Of a stretch of DNA of 64,000 bases, positions 31,971 through 61,471 are shown one piece after another; the stretch's first letter is position 1; every line of letters begins with the position of its first letter. The stretch is from Verrucomicrobiota bacterium (GTDB taxonomy: Bacteria; Verrucomicrobiota; Verrucomicrobiia; Limisphaerales; PALSA-1396): contig JACQFP010000077.1 of the NCBI GenBank assembly GCA_016200005.1, positions 1 through 64,000 of the forward strand, written 5' to 3'. The notes below the pieces were generated by a model. The model worked only from the letters and a program-made list of their open reading frames with translations, was not told where the DNA came from and did not search any database. The translations under genes were made by a program, and so were the position numbers.

Positions 31971-31972
31971 TT

Positions 31973-41499: not shown

Positions 41500-41826
41500 A
41501 TGAAGAACGCGAACGTTTTCGTTGATGTTGACCTGACGCTCGTCGATGCGGACGGAAAGCTGCTGCCGAGCGCACCTGAAGCTTTGACCAAACTTCGAGA
41601 CAAAGGTTGCCACTTGTTTCTGTGGTCAACCAACGGCGCGAATTACGCCCGCAAAGTCGCGAGTCTGTATGGCTTGACAGAAATGTTTGAAGGATTCGCC
41701 GCGAAGCCGGACATCATCATTGATGATATGCCGGGAACGGTTGTGAATCCATTTGTCTTCGACGTGAACACGGAGGAATCATGGCCTGCGCTGGCCGACA
41801 AAATTATTCGCAAACACATTGATTGA
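41500..41826 (+). CDS. small HAD-superfamily hydrolase-like protein
   Basis: 108 residues. Motif [15 protein letters not shown] has the DxDxT nucleophile region, motif II is LFLWSTNG, and motif [10 protein letters not shown] carries the acidic pair. It is a minimal HAD core without a cap domain, shorter than most phosphatases. The substrate is unknown. The stop is 8 nt before the purL start, so the two are co-transcribed, but no link with purine synthesis is evident. Confidence 0.8.
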
Positions 41827-41834
41827 ATTTTGCC

Positions 41835-44243: not shown

Positions 44244-44408
44244 GCCCCACCCAAATTAGAGAGACGCGAGTTCAATCCATAATCGGCGTAGCGGTACAGT
44301 TTGATGTACTGCGTCGGGCATGGGGTTTCCCCCCATTGTGTGAACGCGGCGTTTTTCATACGGTCACTCAAATGCACGCCGCTGACCAATACATTCGGAA
44401 ACAATTAA

Positions 44409-45977
44409 CCCGAATATTTCCTTGCAAAAAAGTGCAACCGTGATCTCCGGCCCACGTTTATGGGTGTATGATTAATACAAGAGACCACGATTGCACGGGG
44501 ACAGTTTGTAACCCTGAACTTTTCCAATTTCCAGCCGTAAAAAAGCGCCAGGTCACGGCGGGTTTTTCCGGCGGGGACGTGACCAGTGATGGCGGCATCC
44601 TGTTGTTGCGCCAAGCCGACCGCCAACTGGGACTGACCCAGGCGCTGGCCCGGGTGTTGCCCGATCCGCGCAACCCGGAGCGCATCGTGCATCCGCTGCT
44701 GACCTTCATCCGTCAGCGCGTCTATGGTCTGTGCCTGGGGTATGAGGATTTGAACGATCACGATCATCTGCGGCAGGATCTGGCCTGGCAGACGGCGGCG
44801 GAACGGGACGAGGCCCTGGCCAGCAGTCCGACCCTCTGCCGCTGGGAGAATCGGGCCGACCGCCAGGCGGCTTGGTGGGTGCAGGAAATCATGGTGAACC
44901 AATTCATCGCCGCCTTTGCGCAGGCACCCACGGAACTGATTTTGGACTTCGACAGCACGGATGACCGGGTGCATGGCAAACAGGAAGGCCGCTTCTTCCA
45001 CGGCTACTACGGCAACTATTGTTTCCTGGCGCTGTATGTGTTTTGCGGAGAGCAGTTGCTGGTGTCGTATTTGCGGCCCAGCAACCAGGACAATGCCCGG
45101 CACGCGTGGGCGATTCTGAAGTTACTGGTCCGGCGATTGCGACGGGCTTGGCCGCAAGTAAAGATCGTGGTGCGGGCCGACAGCGGCTTTTGCCGGTGGC
45201 GGATGCTCCATTGGTGCGACGCTCACGGGGTGGGTTATGTGATTGGCTTGGCCAAGAACGACCGACTCCTGGTTCTGGCCCGGCCGTTAATGGACCAGGC
45301 GCAAGCCCAACACGAACAAACTCAGGAGAAGCAACGGCTCTTTGCCGAGGTGCGATATGCCGCCCAGAGTTGGGAGCGGGAGCGACGGGTGATCGTCAAG
45401 GCGGAGCACACGGACAAAGGGAGCAATCCGCGTTTTGTGGTGACCAATTTGGAGGCGGACGCCCAGCCGCTTTACGACGACGTTTATTGTGCGCGGGGCG
45501 AGATGGAGAACCGGATCAAGGAACAACAGTTGGGTTTGTTCAGCGACCGGACCAGTTGCCACGATTGGTGGGCCAACCAGTTTCGGCTGCTGCTCTCCAG
45601 TTGCGCGTATGTGCTGCTGGAGACGATGCGGCGACTGGGCTTGGCTGGCACCGACTTGGCGCGGGCGCAGGTGGGCACCATCCGGCTGAAGTTGTTGAAA
45701 ATTGGCGCCGTGGTGTTGCGCAACACGCGGCGTGTGCGGCTGCTGTTGGCGAGCAGCTACCCGTATCAAAACATCTTTGCGCAAGTGGCCAAAGCGTTCA
45801 ACACGGGATAGACCCCAACGGTGCTGTCCCCGGCACGATTAAACAATGGGGGTAAGGGGGCGTGTGTACCGGAATCGAACAAATCAAGTTGAGAGGGCAA
45901 GTGGCGTTGAAAAATCACCCGAAAGACGTCTTCGACAGCCGGAAAATCAATTTCGAAGGTATGGTGAAATATTCGGG
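44409..45977 (+). mobile_element. IS1380-family insertion sequence
   Basis: About 1.57 kb. Terminal inverted repeats are CCCGAATATTTC (44409-44420) and GAAATATTCGGG (45966-45977), flanked on both sides by TTAA (44405-44408 and 45978-45981), which I read as the 4-bp target duplication. It contains one transposase gene. It inserted between purL and the giant secreted-protein genes and does not break a gene that I can see. The assignment of ends rests on the perfect repeats and not on comparison with a reference copy. Confidence 0.78.
44468..45811 (+). CDS. IS1380-family transposase
   Basis: 447 residues, an intact DDE transposase. The N-terminal region VTAGFSGGDVTSDGGILLLRQADRQLGL is family-typical. 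The catalytic acids are in LILDFDSTDD, VVRADSGFCRWRM and GEMENRIKEQQLGLFSDRTS. The last is the extended glutamate region of IS1380 elements. No frameshift or early stop is seen, so the copy may be active. The start follows the left inverted repeat by about 50 nt. Confidence 0.93.
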   Translation: MINTRDHDCTGTVCNPELFQFPAVKKRQVTAGFSGGDVTSDGGILLLRQADRQLGLTQALARVLPDPRNPERIVHPLLTFIRQRVYGLCLGYEDLNDHDHLRQDLAWQTAAERDEALASSPTLCRWENRADRQAAWWVQEIMVNQFIAAFAQAPTELILDFDSTDDRVHGKQEGRFFHGYYGNYCFLALYVFCGEQLLVSYLRPSNQDNARHAWAILKLLVRRLRRAWPQVKIVVRADSGFCRWRMLHWCDAHGVGYVIGLAKNDRLLVLARPLMDQAQAQHEQTQEKQRLFAEVRYAAQSWERERRVIVKAEHTDKGSNPRFVVTNLEADAQPLYDDVYCARGEMENRIKEQQLGLFSDRTSCHDWWANQFRLLLSSCAYVLLETMRRLGLAGTDLARAQVGTIRLKLLKIGAVVLRNTRRVRLLLASSYPYQNIFAQVAKAFNTG

Positions 45978-46064
45978 TTAACTCAAACTGTACCATTACC
46001 ATAATCCCCTTGCATTTACCGGAAGTCGGCGGATGATGCACGCGTTCTAACACTTAAGGCATTC

Positions 46065-49000
46065 ATGCGTCCTTGGCGTGCAGCTTGCCGTTCCGCCAGG
46101 GCCGCAGGGTCGTGGTGGACGGCGCAAAGGTGGGTCACCACTCGACTCGCGTCATTCGTTCCTCTTGCGGCTCTGCTACTGACGCCGCTGGTGCTGCGGG
46201 CACAATCCGGGGCGGGCAACTGCCTCCGCTTCGACGGCACGAACGGCTACGTCAGCATCCCGCACACGAATGCGTTCAACGCGTATCCCTTCGCGGCCAC
46301 GGCGTGGATTCGCACCACGTCCATCAACCCCACGGCCCAGGGCATTGTTTCCAAGTATCCCGACGCTCAATTCGACGGCTGGTCCGTGCATCTCGTGAAT
46401 GGTCGCGTCAATGTCTGGTACATCCGATCCTTCGGGAACTGGGTGCTCGCCAGCGGTGATAACCCGATTGACGCCGGCTTTGTCGCCGACGGGAGCTGGC
46501 ACCATATCGCCTTTGCGGTGGATGCGACTGGGGGCCGCGTCTTTGTGGACGGGACACTGCGAGCGACTGCGATTTGGACCGGGCCGGCCGGGCCAGTGAC
46601 GACCACCTTGCCGCTCCAGATTGGGCGTTATTACACTTATGCGAATCGCTTCCAAGGCGACATTGATGAGGTGTCAGTCTGGAACCAGGCGCTTGGCGCG
46701 AACACCGTGAATTACCTCAAGCACCGCCGGCTCACCGGAAACGAAGACGGGCTGGCGGGGCTTTGGCATTTGGATGAAGGAATGGGAACTATCACCAGCA
46801 ATGCGGTCGTTGGCGCCGTTGGCGGAACTTTAAGCAACAGCCCAGCCTGGACTGGTTCCGCTGCGCCCATTGCGCTCGCGATGGTGGCGACGAATTGTTT
46901 GCGATTCGACGGCACGAACGGCTACGTGCAGGTGCCGCACAACACGAACCTGAATGCGTATCCGTTGACGGCGATGGGCTGGTTTCGCACCACGAACACC
47001 GTTTCGTTTGTGCAGGGTATCGTCAGTAAATACGCCGAGAGCAGCCTCAACGGCTGGAGTCTCTTTGTCCAAAACGGAAAGCTGCGCGGATTTTTTTATC
47101 GCCCGGGCTTTGGCGCGGCGATTGACGCCACGTCGGTCGCCACCGTCGCCGATGGCGGTTGGCATCACGCGGCGCTGACGGTGGACGCGGCAGGCGGAAA
47201 GTTGTGGCTCGATGGTAGCGTTGTTGGCACCGGCTCGTGGGTATCGCCCGGTCCGCCCACGAATACCCAGCCGGTTTTGCTCGGGTGCTACTCTCCGGCG
47301 AATTACTCGCAACGCTTCCACGGCGCGCTTGATGAGATCACGGTCTGGAATCGTGCGCTCACGACGAACGAGATTCAAACGCTCAAGAACCGTCCGCTCG
47401 TTGGCAATGAAACCAATTTGGTCGCTTACTGGCGATTGGACGAAGGCACGGGCACCGTGGTCGGCGACGCCACCGGCCACGGCTACAACGGATCGTTCTC
47501 CAACTCGCCCTCGTGGACCGGCTCAACGGCGTATTTGGGCGATGGCAGCGTGTATCTGCTCGCGGCGACTGACATTCCGTTCATTGAACGTTATTACGCC
47601 GTCAACGGCGCCGACTTGGTAAACTCGTTCGGCGTGACAGCCAAAGCCACGTTCTGGCGGTTCTACGACTTCGGCACCGCGCCGTCGAACTTGCTCGTCG
47701 CATACAAACTGGATACCGGGCTGCAAATCGCACCCGCCGGCACGCCGCTGGCGATCAAGCCCAACACCTACTCCAACGCTTTCAACTTTGCGTCTTACAA
47801 CGCGTCAGCGCCGATTGTCTCCGGAGTCGCAGCGGGAATGGCAACGATCAATCAGTTCCGAAACGTCGAACCAGACACCGGCGTGCAATTGGATTCGGTC
47901 AACAATTTCCATCTGATGACCGGCACGCTTTCGCATGACGCGACGGGCGGCGGCTTCACGACGGACGGCACGGAAGCCTCCGACCCCGCGCGGTTGTTGC
48001 ACTTCAACGGGCATGTTTTCTTCGGCGGGATTGACACCATCCTCACCAATGTCATCAACACACCGGCGGCCGGCACGGTCACCGCGCCGACGCATCTGGC
48101 ATCGCAACTGCAAATCGGCGCGGGCGGCGCGTATCTCGCGATCGCGCCCGGGTTCAAGTTCGGCGGCGGCGCGGCGTTCAACGTGAATCTCGGCGCGAAT
48201 GGTTTCGCCACGAACCTGAACGGCTCGTTCAGCCTGGCCAACCCCACACAGTTCTTCGAGACGAACGGAATTCGTTATCGCCTGCCCGGCGCAACCCTCA
48301 GCGCGGCGGGCATGGTGGCCACGAATCTCGAAGCGTGGTTTCCCGCGGGCTTCGGCCTGGCGACCAGCACGAACACTCGCGCCATGATGCCGTTTGCGTC
48401 GAAAACCAACGTGGCGCTGGGGCCGGATCTGTTGCCCACGAGTTCGCCGGTCATTTTCACCGCCGCGTCCTACAATACGAATCTCCTTTGGTTCGCGGAG
48501 GAAACGAAACCGTTCTTGATTGGCGGCTCGCAAATTCTGTGGCGTATTCCGGAGGGCGAGTTCTACATGCCGGATGCGCAGGTGCTCCAGTTCGTCCGGC
48601 AGCAGGAGGACGCCGACCTCGACGCGGAGCGTCCGAATCTCGTGGACCAACTTGGCGGCTATCGCATCTCGAACGACAGCTACTATCGCAATATCGCCGC
48701 CGTCTCGGGCGCGCCGGTCTATGTGCGGCCCGACACCAACGGCGGCGCGCTGCTCACGATCCAGGCGGCCTTGGCGCCGGGCAACTACCGCCCGCATTTT
48801 CCCTATGTGCCTGGCTTCAGCCACATCCCAGCGGCCCCGGGCGAGCTGGTGATCACGAACGACCTGATTGACACCGCCGCGAGTTATTTGCTGCTGCAAG
48901 ACGTGGTGGCCCTGCGGTACGCGCGCGATTGTCCGCCGGATGGCGGTTGCAGTAATGCGGCGGTGGTGGGCGATCAGGTGTTGTTCTTTACCGCGCCGCC

Positions 49001-52000
49001 CGGACATTTTGGTCTGGGCGAACTTCGCTTCACACCCGAGGGCGGGTTGCTGGCTTACGGCACGATTGCGCCGCAGAATCTCACCTGGGGATTTGCGGGC
49101 GCAGGCAAATACGCCCAACGCACGAGCGACATGTCGGACGGCGCTTGTTATTTCTCCGGCACTTTTCTGAAGGCCGACGATCTGGCGGGCGAACAGGATG
49201 CGCGTCGCCCCACGCGCCTGTTGCACACCGGCTACGGGAGCGCGAACACCAACGATTTCACCTACGTCGAACGTCCGGGCGCGGCCAACTACGCCGAGGG
49301 TCTGGCGAATTACGCGGGCTTGAATTTCCGCGCGCCGGCGTCGGGCCGCAGCGTCATCGCCGACGTGGACACCGGTTCGTATCCGCTCACGTCGCGTTCC
49401 AAATACTATGTGCGCTTTGGCGGCGTCAGCGGGATTCATGAATCGGCGACCTTTCCGACGAACCTCACGCTTTACGGTTACGCGTTCACGTTCCAAAGCT
49501 ATCGCCTCTCGTTCCTCGACAGCGACAATGAAGAATCGCGCACGGACGGCGTGGTCACGTTGCCCGTGCCGTCGGGTTTTCCAGTGGAGTTCGAGCGGAT
49601 GAAATTCTTGTGTCGCGGCAACCTCGACTCCGCGCGGCTGCCGGCAAACATTGACACCAAGCATCTGGTTTACTGGAACACGGATCTGAAGCTCTTGAGC
49701 CTGCAATTCAAGCCCGAATCCGGCGACCCATGCAGCCTCACCAAGCGCTATCTGGTGCTGGGGGTGGAAACCAAATTGCCCTTCATCCCGCAAGCCCTTC
49801 ACACCGCGCTGGCCATCAAGAACAATGGCAACCTTGCCACGGCGGCGACCGATGTGGAAGGCGTGGATTCGCGTTTCCCTGTGCCCGCGAATCTCCAGCT
49901 TCAAGGACCGGGCGGAAGTTTTTATCCGCTCACGACGGCGGGCGATGGTTACTTCAACAATTGGGAAAGATCCGACAAGCCGACCACGGGCTTCTACAAT
50001 ATCGCGGCGCGGGTGCGCGTGCCGTTTTTCCGCGACGTGAAAATCCATCTCCACGTCACGCCCACCGGCACGAACTCGGCGCAGCTTGCGCTGATGGGCG
50101 GTTGGGCGGCGGAAGAAGGCAAGGGCACGCACCGCGGCTGGAATGTCGGGGCACAAAATTATTTCAACACGGCGAAGTTTGACCGGACGCACGACGGCTG
50201 GCCGGCCGGCGTGTCGCTGACCGACTATCGCAAGAACGCCGCGGATTACCGCCCGCGCGCGCAGCAGAACTGGATTGACGTGGCGGACTTCGACTATCCG
50301 CTGGCGTGGAACGAGACGCTGCGCCAGTTCAAGGGTTTTGCCGACGCGACGGTGATCCTGCCGGTGATTGACGTGAACAGCCGGCTCAAGGAACTCACGC
50401 CCGGCAAGGTGGACTTCGATTTCGCGCAGGACCTCAATCTGCAACTGCCGCGCCTCAAGGTGCTGGATTTTGCCAACGACGCCTTGAATGAAATCAACGC
50501 GCCCCTCGACTCGCTCGCCGGCGCGCTTCGCTCGCAACTCGGCGCGGGGCTGGATGTGAGCGGCCTGACCAGCGGCTTCCGCAGTCTGCAAAATGTCCTG
50601 CGCGAAAATCCCGAGGGCTTCTTCCGCCCGGTGCTCGAACCGGCGCTCGATGCGGCGGTGGTGAACAACCTTTACAACGCCCTCGCCGCCGAACTCGCCG
50701 CCAACGGCAAAGCCGCGCTGCTGGCCAAGACTGCCGCCATCGTCGGCGCGAACAGCAACTTGCTGCAATCCGCGATCATGAATCTCAACGGGACCGCGGG
50801 CCAGGCGACGAAGGTGTTCGGCCAGTTGGACCACACGTTCGCCGACGCGGAAGCGACGTTGAACCTGTTCCTCGACATGATCAAAAAAGACGGCGGCGGT
50901 AACCGCAACGTCATGCGCGCCGTCATCAAACAATTCGGGGCGGATATCGGAGACATCCCCGACTCGCTGCTCGCCAGCCTGCTGCAAGATCTCGAGCCGA
51001 CACTGGCGAGCATCGAAAGCGACTTGCGCCAACTGCTCGTCCAGTTCGCCGAACTGCGCGCGCAGATCACCGGCGCGTCGGGCGATTTCGCCGCCGCGCT
51101 CAACGCCGCCAATCACTCGGGCGGGGTGGGAACTTATGTGCAGCAGGCTGGCGGCGGCATGGTGAAGCTGCTCGATTCCGTCGTCGGACCGGCGAACGAT
51201 TACTTCACCGCGGATCCCTTGCGGGCAAGGCGCGAAATCCGCGAGCGGCTGATCGCCACCTTCCTCGGCTCGCCCGTGCCGGGTAGTTATCAGACGGCGT
51301 TCCGGCAATTCATGTCGGACAAGAATTTCCAGTTGGATCAGCTCATGGACGTGTTGTTCGACCAGGTAAATCGTTCGATCCGCGACGGGTTGAGTTCGTA
51401 CCTCGCCGGCGCGCAGGATGGCATTCCCCAACCCACGAAGGGCGGAGGCGGCGGTTCGTTGCTCTCGGCCAAGATTCGCGGTTCGCCAACTTTTGAAGGC
51501 GATTCACTCCGCCGGATTCATCTCGATGCGGAAATCAAAATGAAATTGCCGGACGACATGACCTTCTCGGCCTACATGGACATCAAGGAACTCGATTCGC
51601 AATCCACGGCGCTGAGTTGCATCCCGGCAGGCGGTCCGGCGGCGGAGGTGACGCTCGGCGCGAAGGATATTCCGCTGGATTGGCTGGGCGTGTCGAGCGG
51701 CGGGCCGCTCAAGCTCAACATCGAGGCGCGCTGGACGTTGCAAGAAGGCGCGGTGCTCGGGATCGGCGGGTCCTTCGAGGTGCTGGGGAAAATCGGATTC
51801 AAGGGTGGCAGCATCAATGATTTTGGCGCGTCGCTGGCCATCGGCAAGTTTGAAAATTATATCGCGGCCAAGGCGGGCGCCACTGTCACGATCATTGCGA
51901 TCCCGGTGGATTTTAACGTCGGGATTTTTGCCGGCCGCGCCTGCTCGCTCGACCCGCTCAAGTTTATTGATCCGGAAGTGGAGGAAGTCCTGATCACCAA

Positions 52001-52382
52001 GGCCGACGAATTCGCCGGCATTTATCTCCAGTTCGGCGCGAGCGTTTCGCTCTCCGACATTCTTTTCGGTTCCTCAAGCTGCCTGCTGGATCTCACCGGC
52101 AGCGTCAACTACGCGCTCTTTTATCAAGGCGGCCCGCGCTTCGGCAGCATCGGTGGCCGGCAGAAGTTGAGCTTGAGCGCCGACTTGATTTGCATCATCA
52201 GCGCCGAGGCGTCGTGGGCTATGGGCTACCGGCTGGATACGGAAGGAAAATTGTCCATGGCCGGCAAAGCGCGGCTCTGCGGGAAAATCGGCGCGTGTCC
52301 CTTTTGCCTGAAAGCGTGCGCGACGCTCTCCGTGAGCGGCACCGTGACCGATGAGGGAGTGGATTACTCGATTGATTACTGA
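46065..52382 (+). CDS. giant secreted protein with two LamG domains (first of trio)
   Basis: 2105 residues. AAGG lies 6 nt ahead of the ATG. An arginine-rich leader and a hydrophobic core (FVPLAALLLTPLVLRAQ) make a signal peptide of about 47 residues. Two LamG domains follow at about 52-270 and 276-500, each with WHH(I/A)A ... VDA(T/A)GGxxxxDG. The long middle section has no domain that I recognise. Residues about 1470-1790 are rich in amphipathic helices (LLASLLQDLEPTLASIESDLRQLL). The C-terminal 300 residues are beta-strand-rich and end with a cysteine cluster CGKIGACPFCLKAC near 2070-2085. It is likely extracellular, and its function is unknown. It starts a three-gene run with 14- and 16-nt gaps. 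Confidence 0.8.
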   Translation: MRPWRAACRSARAAGSWWTAQRWVTTRLASFVPLAALLLTPLVLRAQSGAGNCLRFDGTNGYVSIPHTNAFNAYPFAATAWIRTTSINPTAQGIVSKYPDAQFDGWSVHLVNGRVNVWYIRSFGNWVLASGDNPIDAGFVADGSWHHIAFAVDATGGRVFVDGTLRATAIWTGPAGPVTTTLPLQIGRYYTYANRFQGDIDEVSVWNQALGANTVNYLKHRRLTGNEDGLAGLWHLDEGMGTITSNAVVGAVGGTLSNSPAWTGSAAPIALAMVATNCLRFDGTNGYVQVPHNTNLNAYPLTAMGWFRTTNTVSFVQGIVSKYAESSLNGWSLFVQNGKLRGFFYRPGFGAAIDATSVATVADGGWHHAALTVDAAGGKLWLDGSVVGTGSWVSPGPPTNTQPVLLGCYSPANYSQRFHGALDEITVWNRALTTNEIQTLKNRPLVGNETNLVAYWRLDEGTGTVVGDATGHGYNGSFSNSPSWTGSTAYLGDGSVYLLAATDIPFIERYYAVNGADLVNSFGVTAKATFWRFYDFGTAPSNLLVAYKLDTGLQIAPAGTPLAIKPNTYSNAFNFASYNASAPIVSGVAAGMATINQFRNVEPDTGVQLDSVNNFHLMTGTLSHDATGGGFTTDGTEASDPARLLHFNGHVFFGGIDTILTNVINTPAAGTVTAPTHLASQLQIGAGGAYLAIAPGFKFGGGAAFNVNLGANGFATNLNGSFSLANPTQFFETNGIRYRLPGATLSAAGMVATNLEAWFPAGFGLATSTNTRAMMPFASKTNVALGPDLLPTSSPVIFTAASYNTNLLWFAEETKPFLIGGSQILWRIPEGEFYMPDAQVLQFVRQQEDADLDAERPNLVDQLGGYRISNDSYYRNIAAVSGAPVYVRPDTNGGALLTIQAALAPGNYRPHFPYVPGFSHIPAAPGELVITNDLIDTAASYLLLQDVVALRYARDCPPDGGCSNAAVVGDQVLFFTAPPGHFGLGELRFTPEGGLLAYGTIAPQNLTWGFAGAGKYAQRTSDMSDGACYFSGTFLKADDLAGEQDARRPTRLLHTGYGSANTNDFTYVERPGAANYAEGLANYAGLNFRAPASGRSVIADVDTGSYPLTSRSKYYVRFGGVSGIHESATFPTNLTLYGYAFTFQSYRLSFLDSDNEESRTDGVVTLPVPSGFPVEFERMKFLCRGNLDSARLPANIDTKHLVYWNTDLKLLSLQFKPESGDPCSLTKRYLVLGVETKLPFIPQALHTALAIKNNGNLATAATDVEGVDSRFPVPANLQLQGPGGSFYPLTTAGDGYFNNWERSDKPTTGFYNIAARVRVPFFRDVKIHLHVTPTGTNSAQLALMGGWAAEEGKGTHRGWNVGAQNYFNTAKFDRTHDGWPAGVSLTDYRKNAADYRPRAQQNWIDVADFDYPLAWNETLRQFKGFADATVILPVIDVNSRLKELTPGKVDFDFAQDLNLQLPRLKVLDFANDALNEINAPLDSLAGALRSQLGAGLDVSGLTSGFRSLQNVLRENPEGFFRPVLEPALDAAVVNNLYNALAAELAANGKAALLAKTAAIVGANSNLLQSAIMNLNGTAGQATKVFGQLDHTFADAEATLNLFLDMIKKDGGGNRNVMRAVIKQFGADIGDIPDSLLASLLQDLEPTLASIESDLRQLLVQFAELRAQITGASGDFAAALNAANHSGGVGTYVQQAGGGMVKLLDSVVGPANDYFTADPLRARREIRERLIATFLGSPVPGSYQTAFRQFMSDKNFQLDQLMDVLFDQVNRSIRDGLSSYLAGAQDGIPQPTKGGGGGSLLSAKIRGSPTFEGDSLRRIHLDAEIKMKLPDDMTFSAYMDIKELDSQSTALSCIPAGGPAAEVTLGAKDIPLDWLGVSSGGPLKLNIEARWTLQEGAVLGIGGSFEVLGKIGFKGGSINDFGASLAIGKFENYIAAKAGATVTIIAIPVDFNVGIFAGRACSLDPLKFIDPEVEEVLITKADEFAGIYLQFGASVSLSDILFGSSSCLLDLTGSVNYALFYQGGPRFGSIGGRQKLSLSADLICIISAEASWAMGYRLDTEGKLSMAGKARLCGKIGACPFCLKACATLSVSGTVTDEGVDYSIDY

Positions 52383-52536
52383 CCGAAAGAAATCCGATGA
52401 CCGAAATCCGAAATCCGAAAGAAGTTCGAAACCCGATGGCCGAAGTCCGAAGAAGTCGGACGCGTGCAAGCGCCTGTTTCGGATTTCGGCCTTCGGATTT
52501 CTTTCGGATTTCGATCATCGGATTTCGGATTTCCCT
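52383..52536. repeat. GAAATCCG-type inverted repeat at the giant 1/giant 2 junction
   Basis: The left arm holds repeated AAATCCGA units (52389-52462). The right arm is TTTCGGATTTCGGCCTTCGG ... CATCGGATTTCGGATTTC (52478-52533). It overlaps the start and the signal peptide of the second giant gene. Confidence 0.9.
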
Positions 52537-55500
52537 GTTTTTTTTGATCCCATTGCTCACGACCTCAATGGTCGCTCAAACTCCCCTCTCCAATCTCGTT
52601 TACGCCGTCGGCACCACCGCCCGCGATAATTTGAACCAGGATTGGTCTTACGTGCTGCTCGATTCCTCCGCGCCGCAGATCCTCGCGGGAAAACGCTTCG
52701 CGGTTTATGGCAAACCTGGTTATCCCGCCGACGCGGGCACCTTTACCTTGCGCGGCGATCTGGTTCAGTCCCCGGACGTCGCCGCCATCAACGCGAAGCT
52801 GAATCAATCGGTCGCGCTCGGCCAGAACCTCGCCTCGCTCAACGACGCGCTCGCCTCGGCGGTCGGAACCAATGTCTTCGGGTTGCTGCGCAAAGTTCCC
52901 GGTATTACGAGTCAATCGCTGCCGCAAAAAGTCCTCACTGCTTTTCAACTGGCTGCGACAGATCAATCCATTGCCGAAATGCTGGCGTTGCTCGAACATG
53001 GCAATCCCGGACTCACCCTTTGCGCCGGGCACGCGTTTTCCGAAATGATCGGCGCCATCACGACTTATGAGATTCGCGAACTCGATCCCGTGTCGGGCGC
53101 GGCGGGCAATGTGGTGGGCCGGGTCACGCTCGTGCCGAATGCGCCGGTGGTTTTGCCGGCGCCGGGAAAACCGTTTCAAGTCGTCAGCAATCATATCAGC
53201 GAACATCTGCTCATCCGCTTGCGCTGGGGCACGCCGGCGGAATTGCGACGGCTCTCGGTCTTGAATGTCGGATTCAACTTGTGGCGCATTGGGAAGACAA
53301 ATGCCGAAGCGGGAAATTTCCACAACCTGCCGCCCACGCTGGCAGTGCTTCACTCGAATCCGGATTTTGTTCAAGCCAATCGCGCCGCGGTGTTCGCCAC
53401 GATGGACTACCACACCGGCAGCGGCGCCGGTGGGGCGGATGATCCGGCGGATCGCCTCACGTTTTTCTTCGCTGACAACGCCCGCGGGTCCGGATCGCCG
53501 CCGTTCATTGACGGGCAGGAATTTTATTATTTCGTGACCGCCCGCGATTTGCTCGGTCGCGATGGCTTGGTGTCGCCCGGTGGATTGGCGCGCGCCTGCC
53601 GCCGTTTGCCGCCCAAGCAACCGACCGATGTGAAAGTCGTCAACATCGTCCTGCCCGGCTCGACCAACCAGCCGCGGCTGCAAGTCACCTGGACGCAGAA
53701 CACGAACGCCGCCGATCACGTGACGCACTACTGGATTTATCGCTGGACGAATCCGACGATGGCCCTCACCAACGACGCCGCGCCGCTGACCTTCCGCGTC
53801 GGGGTGGTGACCAACCTGCCAGGCACAAACGTGAATTCGTTCACGGACACCGGCGCGGGCGCGTTTACCGACCCGAATATCACCAACGCCTGGTTCACCG
53901 TCCGCGCGGTGAGCGAGGCGGCGTGTGATCCGTTGCTCTCGCCGCACAGTGCGCCCGCCTGGGGTGTGTTGCGACAGCGCGAGGGACCAGCGGCCACCAC
54001 GGGCGAACTACTGGGCAGTTGCGGCACGCCGGTGGTGATGTTCCAGAATTTTGTGACGAATGTCATCCCCGAAGATTCCCAGACGTGGAATTTCCAGCTC
54101 ACCTGCACGCGGCGCGATCGCGGCATCGCGTGGGTGCAGTTCCTCATCACCAACACCATCTCCGGCGTCAGCACGCAGGTGGACACCGTCGGCCCGACTT
54201 ACTTCCCGCCGGACGAGGACACCGCCCAACTGGATTATCCCGTGACCGCCGGCGACACTTACGCGCACACCTTCCGAATCGGCTGCACCGTCGGCACTTT
54301 CCTGGAGCAGGTGTCCGCCGTCGCCAACTGCACGCTCACCGCGCCCGTGCCGCCCACGCAACAACGCGAGGCGGTGTTCTTCGCGGGCCAACTGCTCACG
54401 ACCGCGCTCAGCAGCACCGACCCGTTGCTCACCGTACTCAACAACGGCAACAACACCTTTTACTCCGCCACCAGCGCCACGGTGGATCCGAGCGGGATGG
54501 TCGCGTTGCATTTCAACACCGGCCCCGTGCCGCTGCTCGTGCAGGCGCTGACGAACAACACCTGGCTCGACATCGCCGTGATCCGGCCCGACTCGAATCT
54601 GGTTTATTGGGTTTCGTATCCCGCGTGTCTCATCGGCCCGCTGCCGTATTTCCGGGGTTACACCGTGAACCTGCCCGCGACGGACGCCAATTGCGACCAG
54701 CACGTCGCCCGCGCGGCGGACAATGGCCCGGTCGCGCCGGTGCGCGTGCGCTTCAAACTCACGGAACGCACCCGCGAATATCGCGTCTATCGCCGGGCGG
54801 GCGAGGGGCCATTGACGCTCTTCGCGCAAGGCCCGGCGGCTTACGATCCGGCGAATCCGAACAAGCTCATTGAATCGAAAGACGAGGCCATGCCCACGAG
54901 TCCGACGCGGCTTTGCTACTTTGTGCAGACGCTCGACGAACATGGCAACGGCAGCCCGCTCGCATTCATCGGTTGCAAGCCCGTCGGCAGTTTGCCCAAG
55001 CCCGTGCTCGCGGAACCGCAACCCATCGGCACTGTCAACACTCCCCAAATGATGTTGAGCTGGTTCTGCCCCACGTCGGGTGTGGCGCGTTTTCAATTGA
55101 AAGTCCATCGTGTGGATCCGCCCAAGCCTGGGGGAGGCATCAACTTGAACGACCCGGTGCTCACGGTTTATGTGCCCTACAACAAGCAGGCGAGTTATCT
55201 CGGCCTCAACAAAAAGCATAAAGCCGCGCGGCAACTCTACGACGAAGCCCATCTCACCCCGCTGGTCGGTCCGGGCTTTGGCCCCGGCCCCAAGTTCACG
55301 CTCAACGTGAATGTGCTGCCGAACGCGACTTACGATGTTTCCGTCGCCGCCGTGGATAGCCAGGGTAAGGTCTGGGACAGTTCGGAAAACTGGCAGTTCA
55401 CCTGGACGCCGCCGGTGGTGCCCGTGACCGTGCCGTGGCCAGCGCGGCCTCCGCCGCCGGTGAATGGCTTCGATTCGACTTCGCCGGCCGACACGTCGCT

Positions 55501-56083
55501 GCCCTACGCGCCGCGCGTCCAGGCGAAGGTGTTTTACGATTCCGATTTCATCGCGCCCAACCCGCGTTACCCCGTCGGCGTGCGCATCGGGGAGTTAAGC
55601 CTCACTGGGGGGCCGAACAATAACGCGTGGACGGAATTCAACAACGACTACTTGAGCTATTACACGGGCACGGCGGAGAACGTGAGTCAGCAGAGCGCCG
55701 ATCCGAACGCCGGCGTGTTCCGGTCGCGCAGCTCGGCGCGGGCCGGCCAGGCGTTGCTGCCGTTCGTGCTGTATCGCGAGCAACTGACCAACGCGCTCTT
55801 CCCGCGTGTGTCCGGCGACATCACGCAAGTCTCGCCGCTGATCGAACGCGTGCCGTGGAAGGTCGGCCCCAACAACGGTCAGGTGACGATTCCGGACCGG
55901 TTGTTCGCGGGGCAGGAAGAATACTACGCCCCAAAGTACTATTTCTTTTTCTACGTGCGCGACCTGCAACCGGTGCAGCGCGGCGCGAAATACCGCTACT
56001 ACGTCGTGCGCTTCAACGCCCAACGCGAAGTGGAGGAAACCATCCCGGCCGGCGACGTGGAGCCGCCGTTGAACAATAACTAG
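52397..56083 (+). CDS. giant secreted protein with fibronectin-like domains (second of trio)
   Basis: 1228 residues. The N-terminus is made by an inverted repeat: MTEIRNPKEVRNPMAEV from the left arm, and FRISIIGFRISLFFLIPLL, the hydrophobic core of the signal peptide, largely from the right arm. The signal ends near TTSMVAQ. Later sections look like fibronectin type III-like folds (about 401-511, PRLQVTWTQNTNAADHVTHYWIYRW; about 780-855, REYRVYRRAGEGPLTLFAQG; and LSWFCPTSGVARFQLKV). No catalytic motif is seen. The gap to the first giant gene is 14 nt and to the third 16 nt, so the three are probably one transcript. Confidence 0.78.
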   Translation: MTEIRNPKEVRNPMAEVRRSRTRASACFGFRPSDFFRISIIGFRISLFFLIPLLTTSMVAQTPLSNLVYAVGTTARDNLNQDWSYVLLDSSAPQILAGKRFAVYGKPGYPADAGTFTLRGDLVQSPDVAAINAKLNQSVALGQNLASLNDALASAVGTNVFGLLRKVPGITSQSLPQKVLTAFQLAATDQSIAEMLALLEHGNPGLTLCAGHAFSEMIGAITTYEIRELDPVSGAAGNVVGRVTLVPNAPVVLPAPGKPFQVVSNHISEHLLIRLRWGTPAELRRLSVLNVGFNLWRIGKTNAEAGNFHNLPPTLAVLHSNPDFVQANRAAVFATMDYHTGSGAGGADDPADRLTFFFADNARGSGSPPFIDGQEFYYFVTARDLLGRDGLVSPGGLARACRRLPPKQPTDVKVVNIVLPGSTNQPRLQVTWTQNTNAADHVTHYWIYRWTNPTMALTNDAAPLTFRVGVVTNLPGTNVNSFTDTGAGAFTDPNITNAWFTVRAVSEAACDPLLSPHSAPAWGVLRQREGPAATTGELLGSCGTPVVMFQNFVTNVIPEDSQTWNFQLTCTRRDRGIAWVQFLITNTISGVSTQVDTVGPTYFPPDEDTAQLDYPVTAGDTYAHTFRIGCTVGTFLEQVSAVANCTLTAPVPPTQQREAVFFAGQLLTTALSSTDPLLTVLNNGNNTFYSATSATVDPSGMVALHFNTGPVPLLVQALTNNTWLDIAVIRPDSNLVYWVSYPACLIGPLPYFRGYTVNLPATDANCDQHVARAADNGPVAPVRVRFKLTERTREYRVYRRAGEGPLTLFAQGPAAYDPANPNKLIESKDEAMPTSPTRLCYFVQTLDEHGNGSPLAFIGCKPVGSLPKPVLAEPQPIGTVNTPQMMLSWFCPTSGVARFQLKVHRVDPPKPGGGINLNDPVLTVYVPYNKQASYLGLNKKHKAARQLYDEAHLTPLVGPGFGPGPKFTLNVNVLPNATYDVSVAAVDSQGKVWDSSENWQFTWTPPVVPVTVPWPARPPPPVNGFDSTSPADTSLPYAPRVQAKVFYDSDFIAPNPRYPVGVRIGELSLTGGPNNNAWTEFNNDYLSYYTGTAENVSQQSADPNAGVFRSRSSARAGQALLPFVLYREQLTNALFPRVSGDITQVSPLIERVPWKVGPNNGQVTIPDRLFAGQEEYYAPKYYFFFYVRDLQPVQRGAKYRYYVVRFNAQREVEETIPAGDVEPPLNNN

Positions 56084-56099
56084 AGCCGATGAGCAACGT

Positions 56100-59000
56100 G
56101 TGAAATCCGAAATCCGAAATCCGAAATCCGACCCGCTGCGACGGCGCGACAGCGCGGCGAGAAGAAGCCCGAAGGCCGAAATCCGAACCGGCCGCCCGCC
56201 GGTGGCTGGATCATTCGGCCTTCGGATTTCGGATTTCGGATTTGCGTTGACGTGTGTCGCGCTCTTGTTTTTCTGCGCGCCGGCCCTTGCCGCCATCGTT
56301 TACGAAACGCCCGCCGAGTTCCTCACCTCCGGCGATTTCAATGGCGACGGCCTCCCCGATGTGCTCGTGCTGGACAAAGCGATCGGCAACGCGCGAGTCG
56401 GTTATCAAGACAACGCCGGCGTGCTCACTTGGTCCGCGCCGCTCGTGTCGGGCGTCGAGAACGCCAGCGGTTGTGGCATCGGCCGCTTACTGCAATCGGG
56501 CCGCGACGCGTTCGCCGTCACGGCGCCGGATTTCAATCGCATCGCGCTGATGGACGTGAGTAACAGCGTGCCGGTGATCATTCTGCCGGGCGACCCGGCG
56601 GCGACGAACGGGCTGATTGCCGCGTGGGATTTCTTCAGCCTGCCGGCGACCACGGTCTCGACGGCCACGCCCGCCACGATTGCCGCAACCGTCGGGACGG
56701 GAACGCTGGATATCTCGGCCTTCGGTCTGGGCAGTCCACAGGGCAGCAACCCGGAACGGACTTCGTTCAGCGGGACGACACTGAACGCATTTCCGGGATC
56801 GGTGGATGGAAATCCCGGAACGGCTTTGGCGCTGGCGAACAGTTCGGCCAACGGCAAGTCGTTGATCGTAAGTTTCAGCATGTCCGGTCATCAGGACCTG
56901 GTGGTTTCGTTCGACACGCGCGGCACTTCAACCGGTTTCACTTCCGGCACGTGGGCCTGGAGCACCGATGGAATCAATTACACGACGCTCACCGGCGTGA
57001 ACACCGCTACGACAAACACCACCTTCAGCACGGCGACCGCCGACTTCTCCGCGGCGACCGGTTCGAACAATGCGGCCACGGCCTACCTGCGCTACACCCT
57101 GTCCGGCGCCACCACCGCCGGCGGCAACAACCGCATTGATAATGTTCAACTCAACGCATCGCCGCTGGTGCCGCAGGACCTGGGCCCGCATGCGTTGGCC
57201 GGTCTGACCGCGCCCTACGGAACCAACTCCGCTTTTGATCGCCTCCTTTGCGCCAGTTCGCTGAATTCGACGCCGACCGAACGGCTGCATTTGATCAGCT
57301 TGAACGCGGGCACGGTCGTTTCTTCGGACGAGCACTCCGAAACCGCGCCGCTGGAGCGGATCAACGCCCTGCCCATCGCCAACCTGACGTTCGCCGTGGG
57401 CATGGCGCGCGGCGCGACAAACGACGCTCTGCATCTCTGGCAGTTCACGAACTCCGCGAGCGTCATCGGCCTGTTGAGCAACCTCCTGCCGGGCAGCGAT
57501 TACGCGTTCGGCCGATTCAACGACGAAGCACTGCCGCGTTTCTGGTTTTATGTTCCCGGCGGAACGAACGTGAGCATCCGCTCCCTCGTGACCAGCGGCG
57601 CGGGTTTTGGTTTCAGCGCGCCCGTGACGCTCAACTTCACGCAGGCGGTCGAACACGTTTACGTCACCGGGGCGAGCAACGACAGCAGCGCGATCATTCA
57701 ATTTGGCGATGGCATTCAGGGCGCGCGGCTGCCCGGTGGGTCGCCGAGCCTGGCGTCTAGATACGGGACGGGCGCGAGCGGGCATGTCACCGGCGTCGCC
57801 GCGCTCGACGACGGAAAATTTGTTCTCCTGAGCGCGCCGACCGGCTCAGTCTCGTCCGTGGGCGCGCAAGTGATGACGTTCGACGGCACGAACTACACGC
57901 AGATCAGTTCCAACAGTCTGCCGGCGGTCACGACGCGCAACACGCGCGCGACCGTGTGGCTGTTTCAATCCGAGCCGTTCACCAACACCGCCGCCACGCT
58001 CATCGCGTCGTTCAGCGTGCCGGACTGGAGCAGCGGTGTGTTTGGCGTGCCCGGTTCACTCTCGGTCCGCGCGGAAAATGATTCCGGCGCGGCGTCGGGT
58101 CTCGGCAGTCCGGCCACGAATAATCTCGGCGTGCCGCCGGCCGGGACGGCATACGCCCTGCCCGACCAATATCGTGACGACATTTCCTTCTTCACTTATG
58201 CGCCGCCGCGTCCCGTCGAGCCGGTCGTCATCACCATTGCGCCGCCGCCGGGCGCGTACGGCGGACCGATCCAGATTTCTTTCATCAAACAGAACGCCGC
58301 GCACCAAGTTCTCTATCGCACTGGGACGGCGGACAGTTGGAAATTGTATGCCGCGCCTTTCGCGCTGACGAACGACGCGACGATTCAATATTACGGCAAC
58401 GTCCCTGGCGGCACGCGGGGACGATTGCAATTCGCCAGCTACACGATGGGCCGGGCCGACAGCGTGAGCGAACCGCCGGTGAAGTTGCCGGGCAGCGATA
58501 CCAACACGCCACCGGTCGTGAATCCGAACGTGCCGCTCCCCTCCATCCACGGCACGGCGTTTTATGGACGTCGTGGCAGCAATACCGTCCCGACGATTTG
58601 GGCGATCAATCTGGATGGCAGCGGCGAAACCTTCCTCACCACGGGTCGCGAGCCGCGCGTGTCGCGCGACGGACGCTGGATGGCGTTCTGGCGCGAAAAT
58701 GATCCGCTGACGAATCAGTTCAGCCTGTGGTTGCGCGAAGTGCCCACCGGAGAGGAAAACCGCTGGCACACGAGCAGCGCCCGCTACGTCGGTTGCGACT
58801 GGGAGCTTGGCAACACGAACCTCATCTTCGCCACGGACGGCGTGTTCTGGCGGATCGGTGTGAACGAACCACCGGTGGCGTTTCCGTTGAGCCGCGACCC
58901 CCAGCAGGGCGCACCGAGCGTGAACCCGGTGGACGGGCGCGTGGCGCTGCAAGTCATTTATCCCGTCAGCCCCGGCCTTTACCTCGCGCCGTCCAACCTG

Positions 59001-59864
59001 ACGTCACGGCAAAATCTCGGCCTACTGAGCATTCTGGGGCCGCGCTGGCCCGCGTGGTCGCCGGACGGACAGCGCATTGCGATGGCCGACGCTCCAAGCG
59101 GAAGCACAGCGATTGATGCGGGCCACGATTTATGGATTGTTGAACTCGGCGCGCAAACGAACGTTTACCAGATCACCGCGCTCACGGGCGGCGCCGACGG
59201 TTTTCCGAATGGCGCGGTGTGGAAACCCAATGGCGAGGCGCTCGTGACCGCCGGAACGATCTTCGGCACGAACGGGCTTTGGGTGCTTCCACTAACACCC
59301 AATGGCACGGATTGCGACGGCCCGCCGCTGCTGTTGCCGACCTCGCCGGGCGACCCGATTGATTTTGCCGGCTCGGTCGTCGGCTCGCTGCCCCAGGTCA
59401 GTTACACGAACCTCGGTTTGTTCATCCGGCTTGAACCGAACGTCGTCGTCGTTTATTGGAGCACCAACTACGACGGGTTCACGCTGGAATCCGCCGCGAA
59501 CCTGCCGGCCGGCTTCACGTGGACGCCGGTCAGCGGCCCGTATTTCCGCGCCGGCCCGAATTTCGAATACCGCGAGTCACGAGCTGCGTTACAACCGCGC
59601 AAATTCTTCCGCCTGCGTTATCCCGGGATACTGTATTTGACGCCGCCCGAGCCGGAATTGGAAATTCATCGCGAACCAAACGCGGCGGTATTGAACTGGC
59701 CGCTCAACTACGTGGGCTACACATTGGAGGCGACGCCGAGTCTTTCGCCGCCGGCGGTGTGGACGCCGTTGAACGGGCCGTATCTGAACACCAACGGCGT
59801 GTTCGAGTATCGGCGCACGCTGCCCGGGCCGCCGCAGGAATTCTACCGGCTGCGCTGGCCGTAA
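56100..59864 (+). CDS. giant secreted protein with FG-GAP, CHB_HEX-like and TolB-like regions (third of trio)
   Basis: 1254 codons from GTG 56100; GTG 56202 is an alternative. Both starts lie in the repeat, and the signal peptide core FALTCVALLFFCAPALA follows the repeat-encoded FGLRISDFGF. An FG-GAP unit (SGDFNGDGLPDVLVLD) opens the mature part. A CHB_HEX_C-like domain is at about 700-770 (PPPGAYGGPIQISF). A TolB/PD40-like beta-propeller is at about 815-1070 (REPRVSRDGRWMAFW, PAWSPDGQRIAMAD). Two tandem copies of an ~75-residue beta domain end FFRLRYP and FYRLRWP. It is probably surface-bound or extracellular; function unknown. Confidence 0.8.
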   Translation: MKSEIRNPKSDPLRRRDSAARRSPKAEIRTGRPPVAGSFGLRISDFGFALTCVALLFFCAPALAAIVYETPAEFLTSGDFNGDGLPDVLVLDKAIGNARVGYQDNAGVLTWSAPLVSGVENASGCGIGRLLQSGRDAFAVTAPDFNRIALMDVSNSVPVIILPGDPAATNGLIAAWDFFSLPATTVSTATPATIAATVGTGTLDISAFGLGSPQGSNPERTSFSGTTLNAFPGSVDGNPGTALALANSSANGKSLIVSFSMSGHQDLVVSFDTRGTSTGFTSGTWAWSTDGINYTTLTGVNTATTNTTFSTATADFSAATGSNNAATAYLRYTLSGATTAGGNNRIDNVQLNASPLVPQDLGPHALAGLTAPYGTNSAFDRLLCASSLNSTPTERLHLISLNAGTVVSSDEHSETAPLERINALPIANLTFAVGMARGATNDALHLWQFTNSASVIGLLSNLLPGSDYAFGRFNDEALPRFWFYVPGGTNVSIRSLVTSGAGFGFSAPVTLNFTQAVEHVYVTGASNDSSAIIQFGDGIQGARLPGGSPSLASRYGTGASGHVTGVAALDDGKFVLLSAPTGSVSSVGAQVMTFDGTNYTQISSNSLPAVTTRNTRATVWLFQSEPFTNTAATLIASFSVPDWSSGVFGVPGSLSVRAENDSGAASGLGSPATNNLGVPPAGTAYALPDQYRDDISFFTYAPPRPVEPVVITIAPPPGAYGGPIQISFIKQNAAHQVLYRTGTADSWKLYAAPFALTNDATIQYYGNVPGGTRGRLQFASYTMGRADSVSEPPVKLPGSDTNTPPVVNPNVPLPSIHGTAFYGRRGSNTVPTIWAINLDGSGETFLTTGREPRVSRDGRWMAFWRENDPLTNQFSLWLREVPTGEENRWHTSSARYVGCDWELGNTNLIFATDGVFWRIGVNEPPVAFPLSRDPQQGAPSVNPVDGRVALQVIYPVSPGLYLAPSNLTSRQNLGLLSILGPRWPAWSPDGQRIAMADAPSGSTAIDAGHDLWIVELGAQTNVYQITALTGGADGFPNGAVWKPNGEALVTAGTIFGTNGLWVLPLTPNGTDCDGPPLLLPTSPGDPIDFAGSVVGSLPQVSYTNLGLFIRLEPNVVVVYWSTNYDGFTLESAANLPAGFTWTPVSGPYFRAGPNFEYRESRAALQPRKFFRLRYPGILYLTPPEPELEIHREPNAAVLNWPLNYVGYTLEATPSLSPPAVWTPLNGPYLNTNGVFEYRRTLPGPPQEFYRLRWP
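56103..56244. repeat. GAAATCCG-type inverted repeat at the giant 2/giant 3 junction
   Basis: The left arm GAAATCCGAAATCCGAAATC starts at 56103. A second set, GAAGGCCGAAATCCGAA, lies at 56171-56187. The right arm TTCGGCCTTCGGATTTCGG ends near 56243. It encodes KSEIRNPKS and FGLRISDFGF at the N-terminus of the third giant protein. Confidence 0.9.
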
Positions 59865-60010: not shown

Positions 60011-61471
60011 ATGCAGCTTTACCCAAAACATTATTGCGGTGTCTTCGGCATTTACGGTCATCCGAATGCGGCGGAACTGACCTACTACGGTCTGTATGCA
60101 CTGCAACATCGCGGACAGGAGAGTGCGGGCATTGTCACGTCTGACGGTAAACAGTTTCGCGAGTTTCGTGGAATGGGATTGGTGTCGCAGGTTTTCGATG
60201 GCGACATTCTGCACCGGCTTGTCGGCAACATGGCGGTGGGGCACACGCGTTATTCCACCATGGGTTCTTCCCACTTGCGCAACGCGCAACCGCTGACGGG
60301 CAATTGCCGGCGCGGACAAATCGCCATCGCGCACAACGGAAATCTCACCAACGCCGTCAAGGTGCGCGAGGAACTGGAGGCTAAAGGTTCGATGTTCCAG
60401 ACTACTGTCGATAGCGAAATCATTTTGAATCTCCTGGCGCAACCTACCATCGGCGGGCACGAGAACAATCTGGTTGAAACCGTCCGCCGGATTGAAGGTG
60501 CTTACTCGCTGGTCATCATGACAGAGCAGGAGTTGATCGGGGTGCGCGATCCGCATGGTTTTCGGCCGCTCTCCATCGGCCAGGTGGATGGCGCGTGGGT
60601 GCTGGCCAGCGAGACCTGCGCGTTCGATTTGATCCACGCCAGATTCGTCCGCGATGTCGAGCCCGGCGAGATCGTCATCATCGACAAGAATGGGCTGCGC
60701 AGCATCCAGGCGTTTCCGGAGCACGAACGGCGCGCCTTCTGTATTTTTGAATACGTTTATTTTGCGCGGCCTGACAGCACGATCGCCAATCGCAACGTGT
60801 ATAAAGTCCGCGTGGAAATGGGGCGGCAGCTCGCGCGCGAAAATCCCATCCAGGCCGACGTCGTCATTCCGGTGCCGGACAGCGGGAACTGCGCGGCGCT
60901 CGGTTATTCCGAGGAGAGCAAGATTCCGTTCGAGATGGCGTTCGTGCGCAATCACTACGTGGGGCGAAGTTTTCTCCAGCCTTCGCAATTGATTCGCGAT
61001 TTTGATGTGCGCGTGAAGCTTAACCTCATCACCGAACTCGTGAAAGGGAAGCGCGTGATCGTGGTGGATGATTCCATTGTGCGGGGCACGACATGCAAGA
61101 CGCGGGTGAACAATCTCAAGGAAGCCGGGGCCAAAGAGGTCCACGTGCTGGTGAGTTGTCCGCCGCACATGAACCCGTGCGTTTATGGAATTGATTTTCC
61201 GGATCGCAGCAAGCTCATGGCCGCAAATTATTCGCTGGAGGAAATCCGGCGCTATCTCAACGCGGATTCGCTCGCCTATTTGTCGAAAGAGGGGATGATC
61301 AAGGCGACAGGTTTGCCGAAGGAGGCGTTTTGCATGGCCTGTTACGATGGCAATTATCCCGTGCCGTACGATGCGATGCTGGACAAACACATCATGGAAC
61401 GTCGCGGCGCGCGGGTTGAGGGTTTGGGCGAGGCGCTCACGAAAGAAGAGTTGCAGATCAAATTGCTGTAA
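60011..61471 (+). CDS. purF: amidophosphoribosyltransferase
   Basis: 486 residues from ATG 60011; the frame opens far upstream through the giant gene's end. A short propeptide MQLYPKHY precedes the N-terminal nucleophile Cys9 in CGVFGIYGH, as in the Bacillus-type enzyme that is processed to expose the Cys. It makes phosphoribosylamine from PRPP and glutamine, the first step of purine synthesis. The PRPP loop is VIVVDDSIVRGTT. The iron-sulfur cysteines of the Bacillus type appear to be present (FCIFEYVYF, CPPHMNPCVYGIDFPDR, FCMACYDGNYP), so an oxygen-sensitive 4Fe-4S cluster is likely. It lies 16 kb from purL, beyond an IS and the giant trio. Confidence 0.95.
   Translation: MQLYPKHYCGVFGIYGHPNAAELTYYGLYALQHRGQESAGIVTSDGKQFREFRGMGLVSQVFDGDILHRLVGNMAVGHTRYSTMGSSHLRNAQPLTGNCRRGQIAIAHNGNLTNAVKVREELEAKGSMFQTTVDSEIILNLLAQPTIGGHENNLVETVRRIEGAYSLVIMTEQELIGVRDPHGFRPLSIGQVDGAWVLASETCAFDLIHARFVRDVEPGEIVIIDKNGLRSIQAFPEHERRAFCIFEYVYFARPDSTIANRNVYKVRVEMGRQLARENPIQADVVIPVPDSGNCAALGYSEESKIPFEMAFVRNHYVGRSFLQPSQLIRDFDVRVKLNLITELVKGKRVIVVDDSIVRGTTCKTRVNNLKEAGAKEVHVLVSCPPHMNPCVYGIDFPDRSKLMAANYSLEEIRRYLNADSLAYLSKEGMIKATGLPKEAFCMACYDGNYPVPYDAMLDKHIMERRGARVEGLGEALTKEELQIKLL

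Follow-up and report, generated by a model that had tools for sequence, protein, structure and literature searches.

Verrucomicrobiota encode many very large secreted proteins of unassigned use. Several described systems bear comparison with the locus reported here. Classical autotransporters (type Va) carry a signal peptide, a large body with an exchangeable tip, a helix, and a C-terminal barrel on one chain. The β-signal of the β-barrel assembly machinery (BAM) ends in the pattern aromatic/hydrophobic-x-aromatic/hydrophobic (PMC10945584). Kinase-activated sigma factors of the extracytoplasmic function (ECF) type have been described in the ECF43 group (PMC13147305). Here, we analyzed a stretch of 64,000 nucleotides from a Verrucomicrobiota bacterium (contig JACQFP010000077.1, assembly GCA_016200005.1; the window, hereafter), in which three adjacent genes encode the giant proteins P1, P2, and P3. 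We read this trio, with a confidence somewhat above even, as one operon for a three-protein cell-surface assembly that is anchored in the outer membrane.

The trio is a single conserved unit

The three genes run head to tail on the forward strand and make up ∼14 kb of coding sequence, namely P1 (46065–52382; 2105 residues, ATG start), P2 (52397–56083; 1228 residues, ATG start), and P3 (56100–59864; 1254 residues, GTG start), with intergenic gaps of 14 nt (P1/P2) and 16 nt (P2/P3); the open reading frames (ORFs) are exactly those claimed in an earlier sequence-only reading of this DNA. That reading also took all three proteins to be exported, and, as judged by eye, each N terminus bears this out, with one hydrophobic segment and, after it, a plausible signal-peptidase site (LASFVPLAALLLTPLVLRAQ in P1, IIGFRISLFFLIPLLTTSMVAQ in P2, and FALTCVALLFFCAPALAA in P3). 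Pfam searches detected no enzyme families in P1–P3, in agreement with its statement that no enzyme motif is visible. An antisense ORF of 1208 codons (47805–51431, minus strand) lies opposite P1 and is most probably a shadow ORF that reflects GC-rich coding sequence.

Homologs of P1 were found in 12 of the 58 relatives searched, and homologs of P2 likewise in 12 of 58. Relatives of P3 are commoner, because some P3 modules are shared with other proteins, and in carrier genomes they adjoin P1 and P2 wherever the contig is long enough. A scan of 84,980 species (one genome each), seeded by one conserved P1 motif, returned 79 loci, all of which belong to Verrucomicrobiota where the record title gives the group; represented are Limisphaerales/Pedosphaera, Opitutales, Kiritimatiellales, Pontiellaceae, Verrucomicrobiaceae, Akkermansiaceae, and one Victivallales. 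Linkage could be assessed at the 61 loci in which the sequence continues for 4.5 kb or more past P1, and all three genes occur together in every one of them (61/61). The order is P1-P2-P3 on one strand in 58 of these loci and P2-P3-P1 in two, while in one locus P2 and P3 are divergent. P2 starts within 30 nt of the P1 stop codon, or overlaps it, at 65 of 66 junctions, and the same holds for P3 relative to P2 at 62 of 65; possible 4-nt start/stop overlaps are present at 12/66 P1/P2 junctions and 30/65 P2/P3 junctions.

The trio relatives are ∼25–77% identical, come from many orders of one phylum, and lie in differing surroundings. Pairwise distance matrices of P1, P2, and P3 correlate with r values of 0.96, 0.94, and 0.93 (50 loci), to which shared species history contributes, and the P1-P2 value was reached by none of 999 permutations. 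When paralogue pairing was used as a test of co-inheritance, all three informative cases agreed. By P2 profile, the family is present in 57 of 293 genomes of the order, or roughly one fifth of those sampled, and in 24 of 387 genomes sampled across the phylum, several other orders and classes being included; some genomes carry multiple copies, with four in one genome. The distribution is therefore patchy and the surroundings variable, and P1-P2-P3 is a single conserved unit across Verrucomicrobiota. The prediction of one unit thus held, and one outcome named as fatal to it, with relatives carrying the genes apart, was not found by synteny. The trio is real and conserved, and is uncharacterized in the libraries used.

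The relatives fetched include two named Pontiellaceae records, B12219 and B1224, which carry no label as metagenome-assembled genomes. In a close relative, L076 (and in L051), P1, P2, and P3 are each broken into overlapping frames, which suggests either that the entire unit has decayed or that it was misassembled.

P1 and its predicted outer-membrane barrel

P1 consists of a signal peptide, two LamG domains (residues ∼50–440), a conserved β-rich body (∼480–1460), a helical segment (∼1466–1785), and a 16-strand β domain (∼1799–2105). The sequence-only reading had proposed structure prediction for the unassigned central and C-terminal parts; our AlphaFold2 model covers residues 911–2105 (57-sequence alignment; predicted local distance difference test score [pLDDT] 84, predicted template-modeling score 0.61) and comprises a β-rich body and long helices as well as 16 antiparallel strands that reach the last residue. 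The DNA at 51459–52379 on the forward strand encodes the predicted outer-membrane barrel, whose strands are mostly 12–14 residues long. In structural comparison of this C-terminal part, porins lead with Z scores of 13–14 and root mean square deviations (rmsd) of mostly 5–6 Å over 220–250 residues, as exemplified by maltoporin (Z 13.9, rmsd 5.7 over 249) and Vibrio cholerae OmpT (Z 13.9, rmsd 6.2 over 223).

The C-terminal residues point the same way. An aromatic last residue (F/Y/W) combined with a hydrophobic residue at −3 is found in 44 of 71 P1 C termini, as compared with 16 of 404 flanking ORFs, 0 of 65 P2, and 0 of 45 P3 proteins, and a relaxed version of this signature is present in 51 of 71 P1 proteins versus 63 of 404 neighboring ORFs. 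The signature agrees with the terminal part of the BAM β-signal and provides independent sequence support for the barrel. The source genome itself encodes an Omp85/BamA-type protein, of which the last residue is also F.

Several observations weigh against an outer-membrane barrel. The canonical Gly of the β-signal (−6) is in register in only 3 of 71 P1 proteins; this motif is proteobacterial and is not carried by every outer-membrane protein, and its low count weakens, without excluding, membership of the barrel family. Six cysteines are invariant across the C-terminal alignment, which is unusual for a porin; by strand order, two would face one side of the sheet and the remaining four the opposite side, and disulfides may form within each side. 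The strand alternation of the barrel region (1.04) does not discriminate it from the other β region of P1 (0.91), and no similarity was found between the barrel sequence and solved chains. Further, the top Foldseek matches to P1 are weak and are non-barrel lipid-transfer proteins (lipovitellin, E 1e-3, probability 0.20), and the conserved core of the window P1 matched no Pfam family. Taken with the model, the porin matches, and the C-terminal signature, we regard the P1 C terminus as a predicted 16-strand barrel of the outer membrane.

At the other end of P1, the LamG region called in the sequence-only reading is secure, with two domain copies above the Pfam cut-off (Laminin_G_3, E 6e-49). This N-terminal module is exchanged among relatives: in 50 scanned P1 proteins, LamG was found in 13, an InhA-like MAM module in six, and a DUF5122 propeller in two, with few or no modules recognized in the remainder. 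Residues ∼600–2105 are conserved throughout, most strongly at 1050–1425. A known domain for the body was sought in Pfam, NCBIfam, and PDB profile searches and was rejected, as these gave only chance matches of coiled-coil type (coronavirus spike heptad repeats, apoE, and designed bundles); in the fold search, the list is filled by the barrel, and the body (∼600–1460) is barely covered.

P2 and P3

The window P2 has no Pfam match, fibronectin type III (FN3) models included. The model built for it from an alignment of 56 sequences (pLDDT 87) shows FN3/Ig-like domains in a chain; FN3-type chains head both structural lists, with receptor and titin FN3 chains as the nearest matches. P2 is accordingly predicted to be a chain of fibronectin-III domains, and the fibronectin-like content claimed for the trio stands on this model.

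P3 comprises an FG-GAP-like start, a conserved core (residues ∼400–800), a PD40/TolB-like part, and two C-terminal Ig-like modules that are common to other secreted proteins. The claims of FG-GAP and TolB-like regions fared less well, the matches in P3 being weak and under Pfam cut-offs, while the claimed CHB_HEX-like region was recovered in four of 37 P3 relatives, among which TSP3 repeats (20), FG-GAP (12), and PD40 (8) also occur. The core is probably propeller-like. Conservation is confined to residues 50–160 at the start and 400–800 in the core, the rest being variable. Residues ∼161–350 (56580–57150, forward strand) form a lineage-specific insertion, seen as an alignment gap in relatives; it is missing from most orthologs and resembles stretches of other proteins elsewhere.

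The last ∼75 residues of P3 (∼1180–1254; window positions 59640–59864) form a module ending in F-[FY]-R-L, which recurs at the C terminus of many large secreted proteins of the order that have no other relationship to one another, and which may act in sorting or anchoring. P3-like proteins of ∼740 residues, present in many genomes, have no P1 or P2 neighbor and were set aside as a separate family (L067–L070 and L072–L074); in several members, a gene for 345–483 residues follows on the same strand.

Neighboring genes and genomic setting

Of the 79 loci, 13 have an ECF sigma factor gene and/or a Ser/Thr kinase gene beside the trio. The two are mostly paired, are often codirectional with gaps of a few nucleotides, and the kinases examined carry propeller (WD40-like) repeats. 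No such neighbor is present beside the trio of the window among the genes examined, and among the neighbors sampled, part of which were annotated, the ECF and kinase families are the only ones that recur directly beside the trio.

In the window, the trio and an insertion sequence (IS) lie between purL (41823–44243) and purF (60011–61471). In three relatives, purL directly adjoins purF, and we therefore take the IS and the trio to be probable insertions at this point. The IS (44405–45981) is single-copy and is presumably IS1380-like; its transposase gene (44468–45811; DDE_Tnp_1_4) adjoins the trio, and perfect 16-nt inverted repeats bound it (44405–44420 and 45966–45981). A second, imperfect pair of 17 nt is located just outside (44288–44304 and 45983–45999).

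A dispersed palindromic repeat occurs on the forward strand both at the P1/P2 junction (52383–52535; strong hairpin, z −7.7) and at the start of P3 (56101–56245; strong hairpin, z −5.6). Its core, CGAAATCCGAAATCCG, translated as EIRNPKSE...FGFRISDFGF, is found again at 31972 in the window and has 68 exact matches genome-wide, as against none for the reversed control. At the P1/P2 junction, the repeat constitutes most of the P2 N terminus ahead of the signal-peptide core, and the first ∼45–50 residues of both P2 and P3 are encoded by it in the source genome, as N-terminal extensions that directly precede the two signal-peptide cores; the exact start codons of these two genes are therefore uncertain.

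Proposed assembly and alternative explanations

That three unrelated secreted proteins are adjacent by accident in the source genome would be in keeping with their differing domain contents, and short gaps can arise by chance in one genome. We rejected chance adjacency and assign it a nearly negligible probability, as the arrangement recurs throughout the relatives: linkage is complete in the 61 testable loci, extends over many orders with changing surroundings, and persists in the rearranged loci, which keep all three genes. A different proposal concerns P1 itself, which might be a giant secreted protein that binds or shuttles lipid, akin to vitellogenin, apolipoprotein B (apoB), or MTP, with its amphipathic C-terminal sheet and its helices holding lipid instead of residing in the membrane, and with P2 and P3 as carriers or receptors. 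The first seven Foldseek matches to P1 are all lipovitellin, MTP, apoB, or vitellogenin and span most of the model, apoB is among the VIA matches (Z 12.6, rmsd 10.5), and the model has a β-α-β domain order. However, the Foldseek scores are low (E 1e-3 to 4e-2, probability 0.10–0.23, template-modeling score 0.05–0.10), the porin alignments have lower rmsd, and an aromatic C-terminal signature of outer-membrane proteins would be unexpected in a soluble carrier, such that we consider this explanation improbable.

We hold it to be just as improbable that P1 is an export channel, the barrel and a helical plug of which would pass P2 and P3, or the P1 body, in a self-contained type V-like system that releases P2 and P3. 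A barrel at the extreme C terminus behind a large passenger-like body, a long helix directly before strand 1, the obligate linkage between channel and partners, and the presence of FapF, an usher, TOM40, and LptD among the structural matches of P1 would all suit such a channel, whereas Pfam finds no POTRA or autotransporter domain in P1, P2 and P3 have no evident common secretion signal to pair with it, and no further secretion gene is conserved nearby.

In our preferred reading of an outer-membrane-anchored assembly, P1 would be exported via the Sec route and its C-terminal 16-strand barrel put into the outer membrane by BAM, so that the helical segment and the long β-rich body project from the barrel and the exchangeable N-terminal recognition module (LamG in the source clade) forms the outer end. 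P2, as an FN3-like chain, and P3, with its propeller-like core, would be coexported and bind P1 as a stalk or scaffold and a cap. Loss of one member would make the other two useless, and such mutual dependence would account for a linkage that is nearly absolute. In some lineages of the phylum, the operon would be switched on by the Ser/Thr kinase and the ECF sigma factor that belongs to it. The multiprotein surface machine suggested by the sequence-only reading keeps its extracytoplasmic setting and a probable assembly, on account of the predicted P1 barrel, P2 FN3 chain, and propeller-like P3; surface exposure, a physical P1-P2-P3 complex, and the kinase/ECF regulation are what we infer from these features, together with a role in attachment to a surface, to matrix, or to other cells.

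A role in extracellular matrix, also raised in that reading, is possible. Its suggestion of polysaccharide capture, although possible via LamG, gained no specific support, given that LamG is present in only 13 of 50 P1 proteins and that no carbohydrate-active or Sus-type family recurs beside the trio among the sampled, partly annotated neighbors. What makes the function of the trio testable is that its genes form one inseparable unit, for which a membrane anchor is predicted and which has an exchangeable tip and, at some loci, a dedicated regulator.

Comparison with known systems

P1, as predicted, shares the overall plan of type Va autotransporters but has 16 predicted strands rather than 12, a body unmatched to the right-handed β-helix, and two obligate giant partners, and no autotransporter domain was matched by Pfam in P1 (13 P1 alignment members). 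With porins (maltoporin, OprD/Occ, and OmpT), the P1 domain has in common an antiparallel barrel fold of 16–18 strands in structural comparison and an aromatic C terminus; it differs in having no sequence similarity to them, in forming only ∼15% of a 2105-residue protein, and in its invariant cysteines and long loops on both sides. As for two-partner secretion (TpsB/Omp85), P1 has no POTRA or Omp85 match in Pfam, and no TonB-dependent-barrel or SusD-type Pfam match, as in SusC/SusD, was found in P1–P3. Large lipid transfer proteins (lipovitellin, MTP, and apoB) resemble P1 in weak whole-chain Foldseek similarity and in a β-α-amphipathic-β order, but the scores are low, the helical part of P1 differs, its C terminus is of outer-membrane type, and vitellogenin gave no Pfam match in the same 13 alignment members.

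P2 resembles FN3-chain proteins (PTP-delta, neogenin, contactin, and titin, as well as the bacterial CtXyl5A FN3) in its tandem FN3-like domains; it differs from them in being unmatched by Pfam FN3, in an extra N-terminal helical insert, and in its accompaniment by P1 and P3 in the examined loci. The regulators beside the trio recall kinase-activated factors of ECF43 type (PknS/EcfK and PknT/EcfP), in which an ECF gene likewise stands beside a Hanks-type kinase gene (PMC13147305), but here the kinases examined have WD40-like repeats, and the pair adjoins only a minority of the loci (13/79). We suggest tentatively, and with less than even confidence, that the trio represents a surface machine of a new class in Verrucomicrobiota, unrelated in sequence to known adhesins, Sus systems, and type V secretion, which would combine a giant outer-membrane-anchored barrel protein with an exchangeable tip, two obligate giant partners, and, in some lineages, a kinase-sigma switch.

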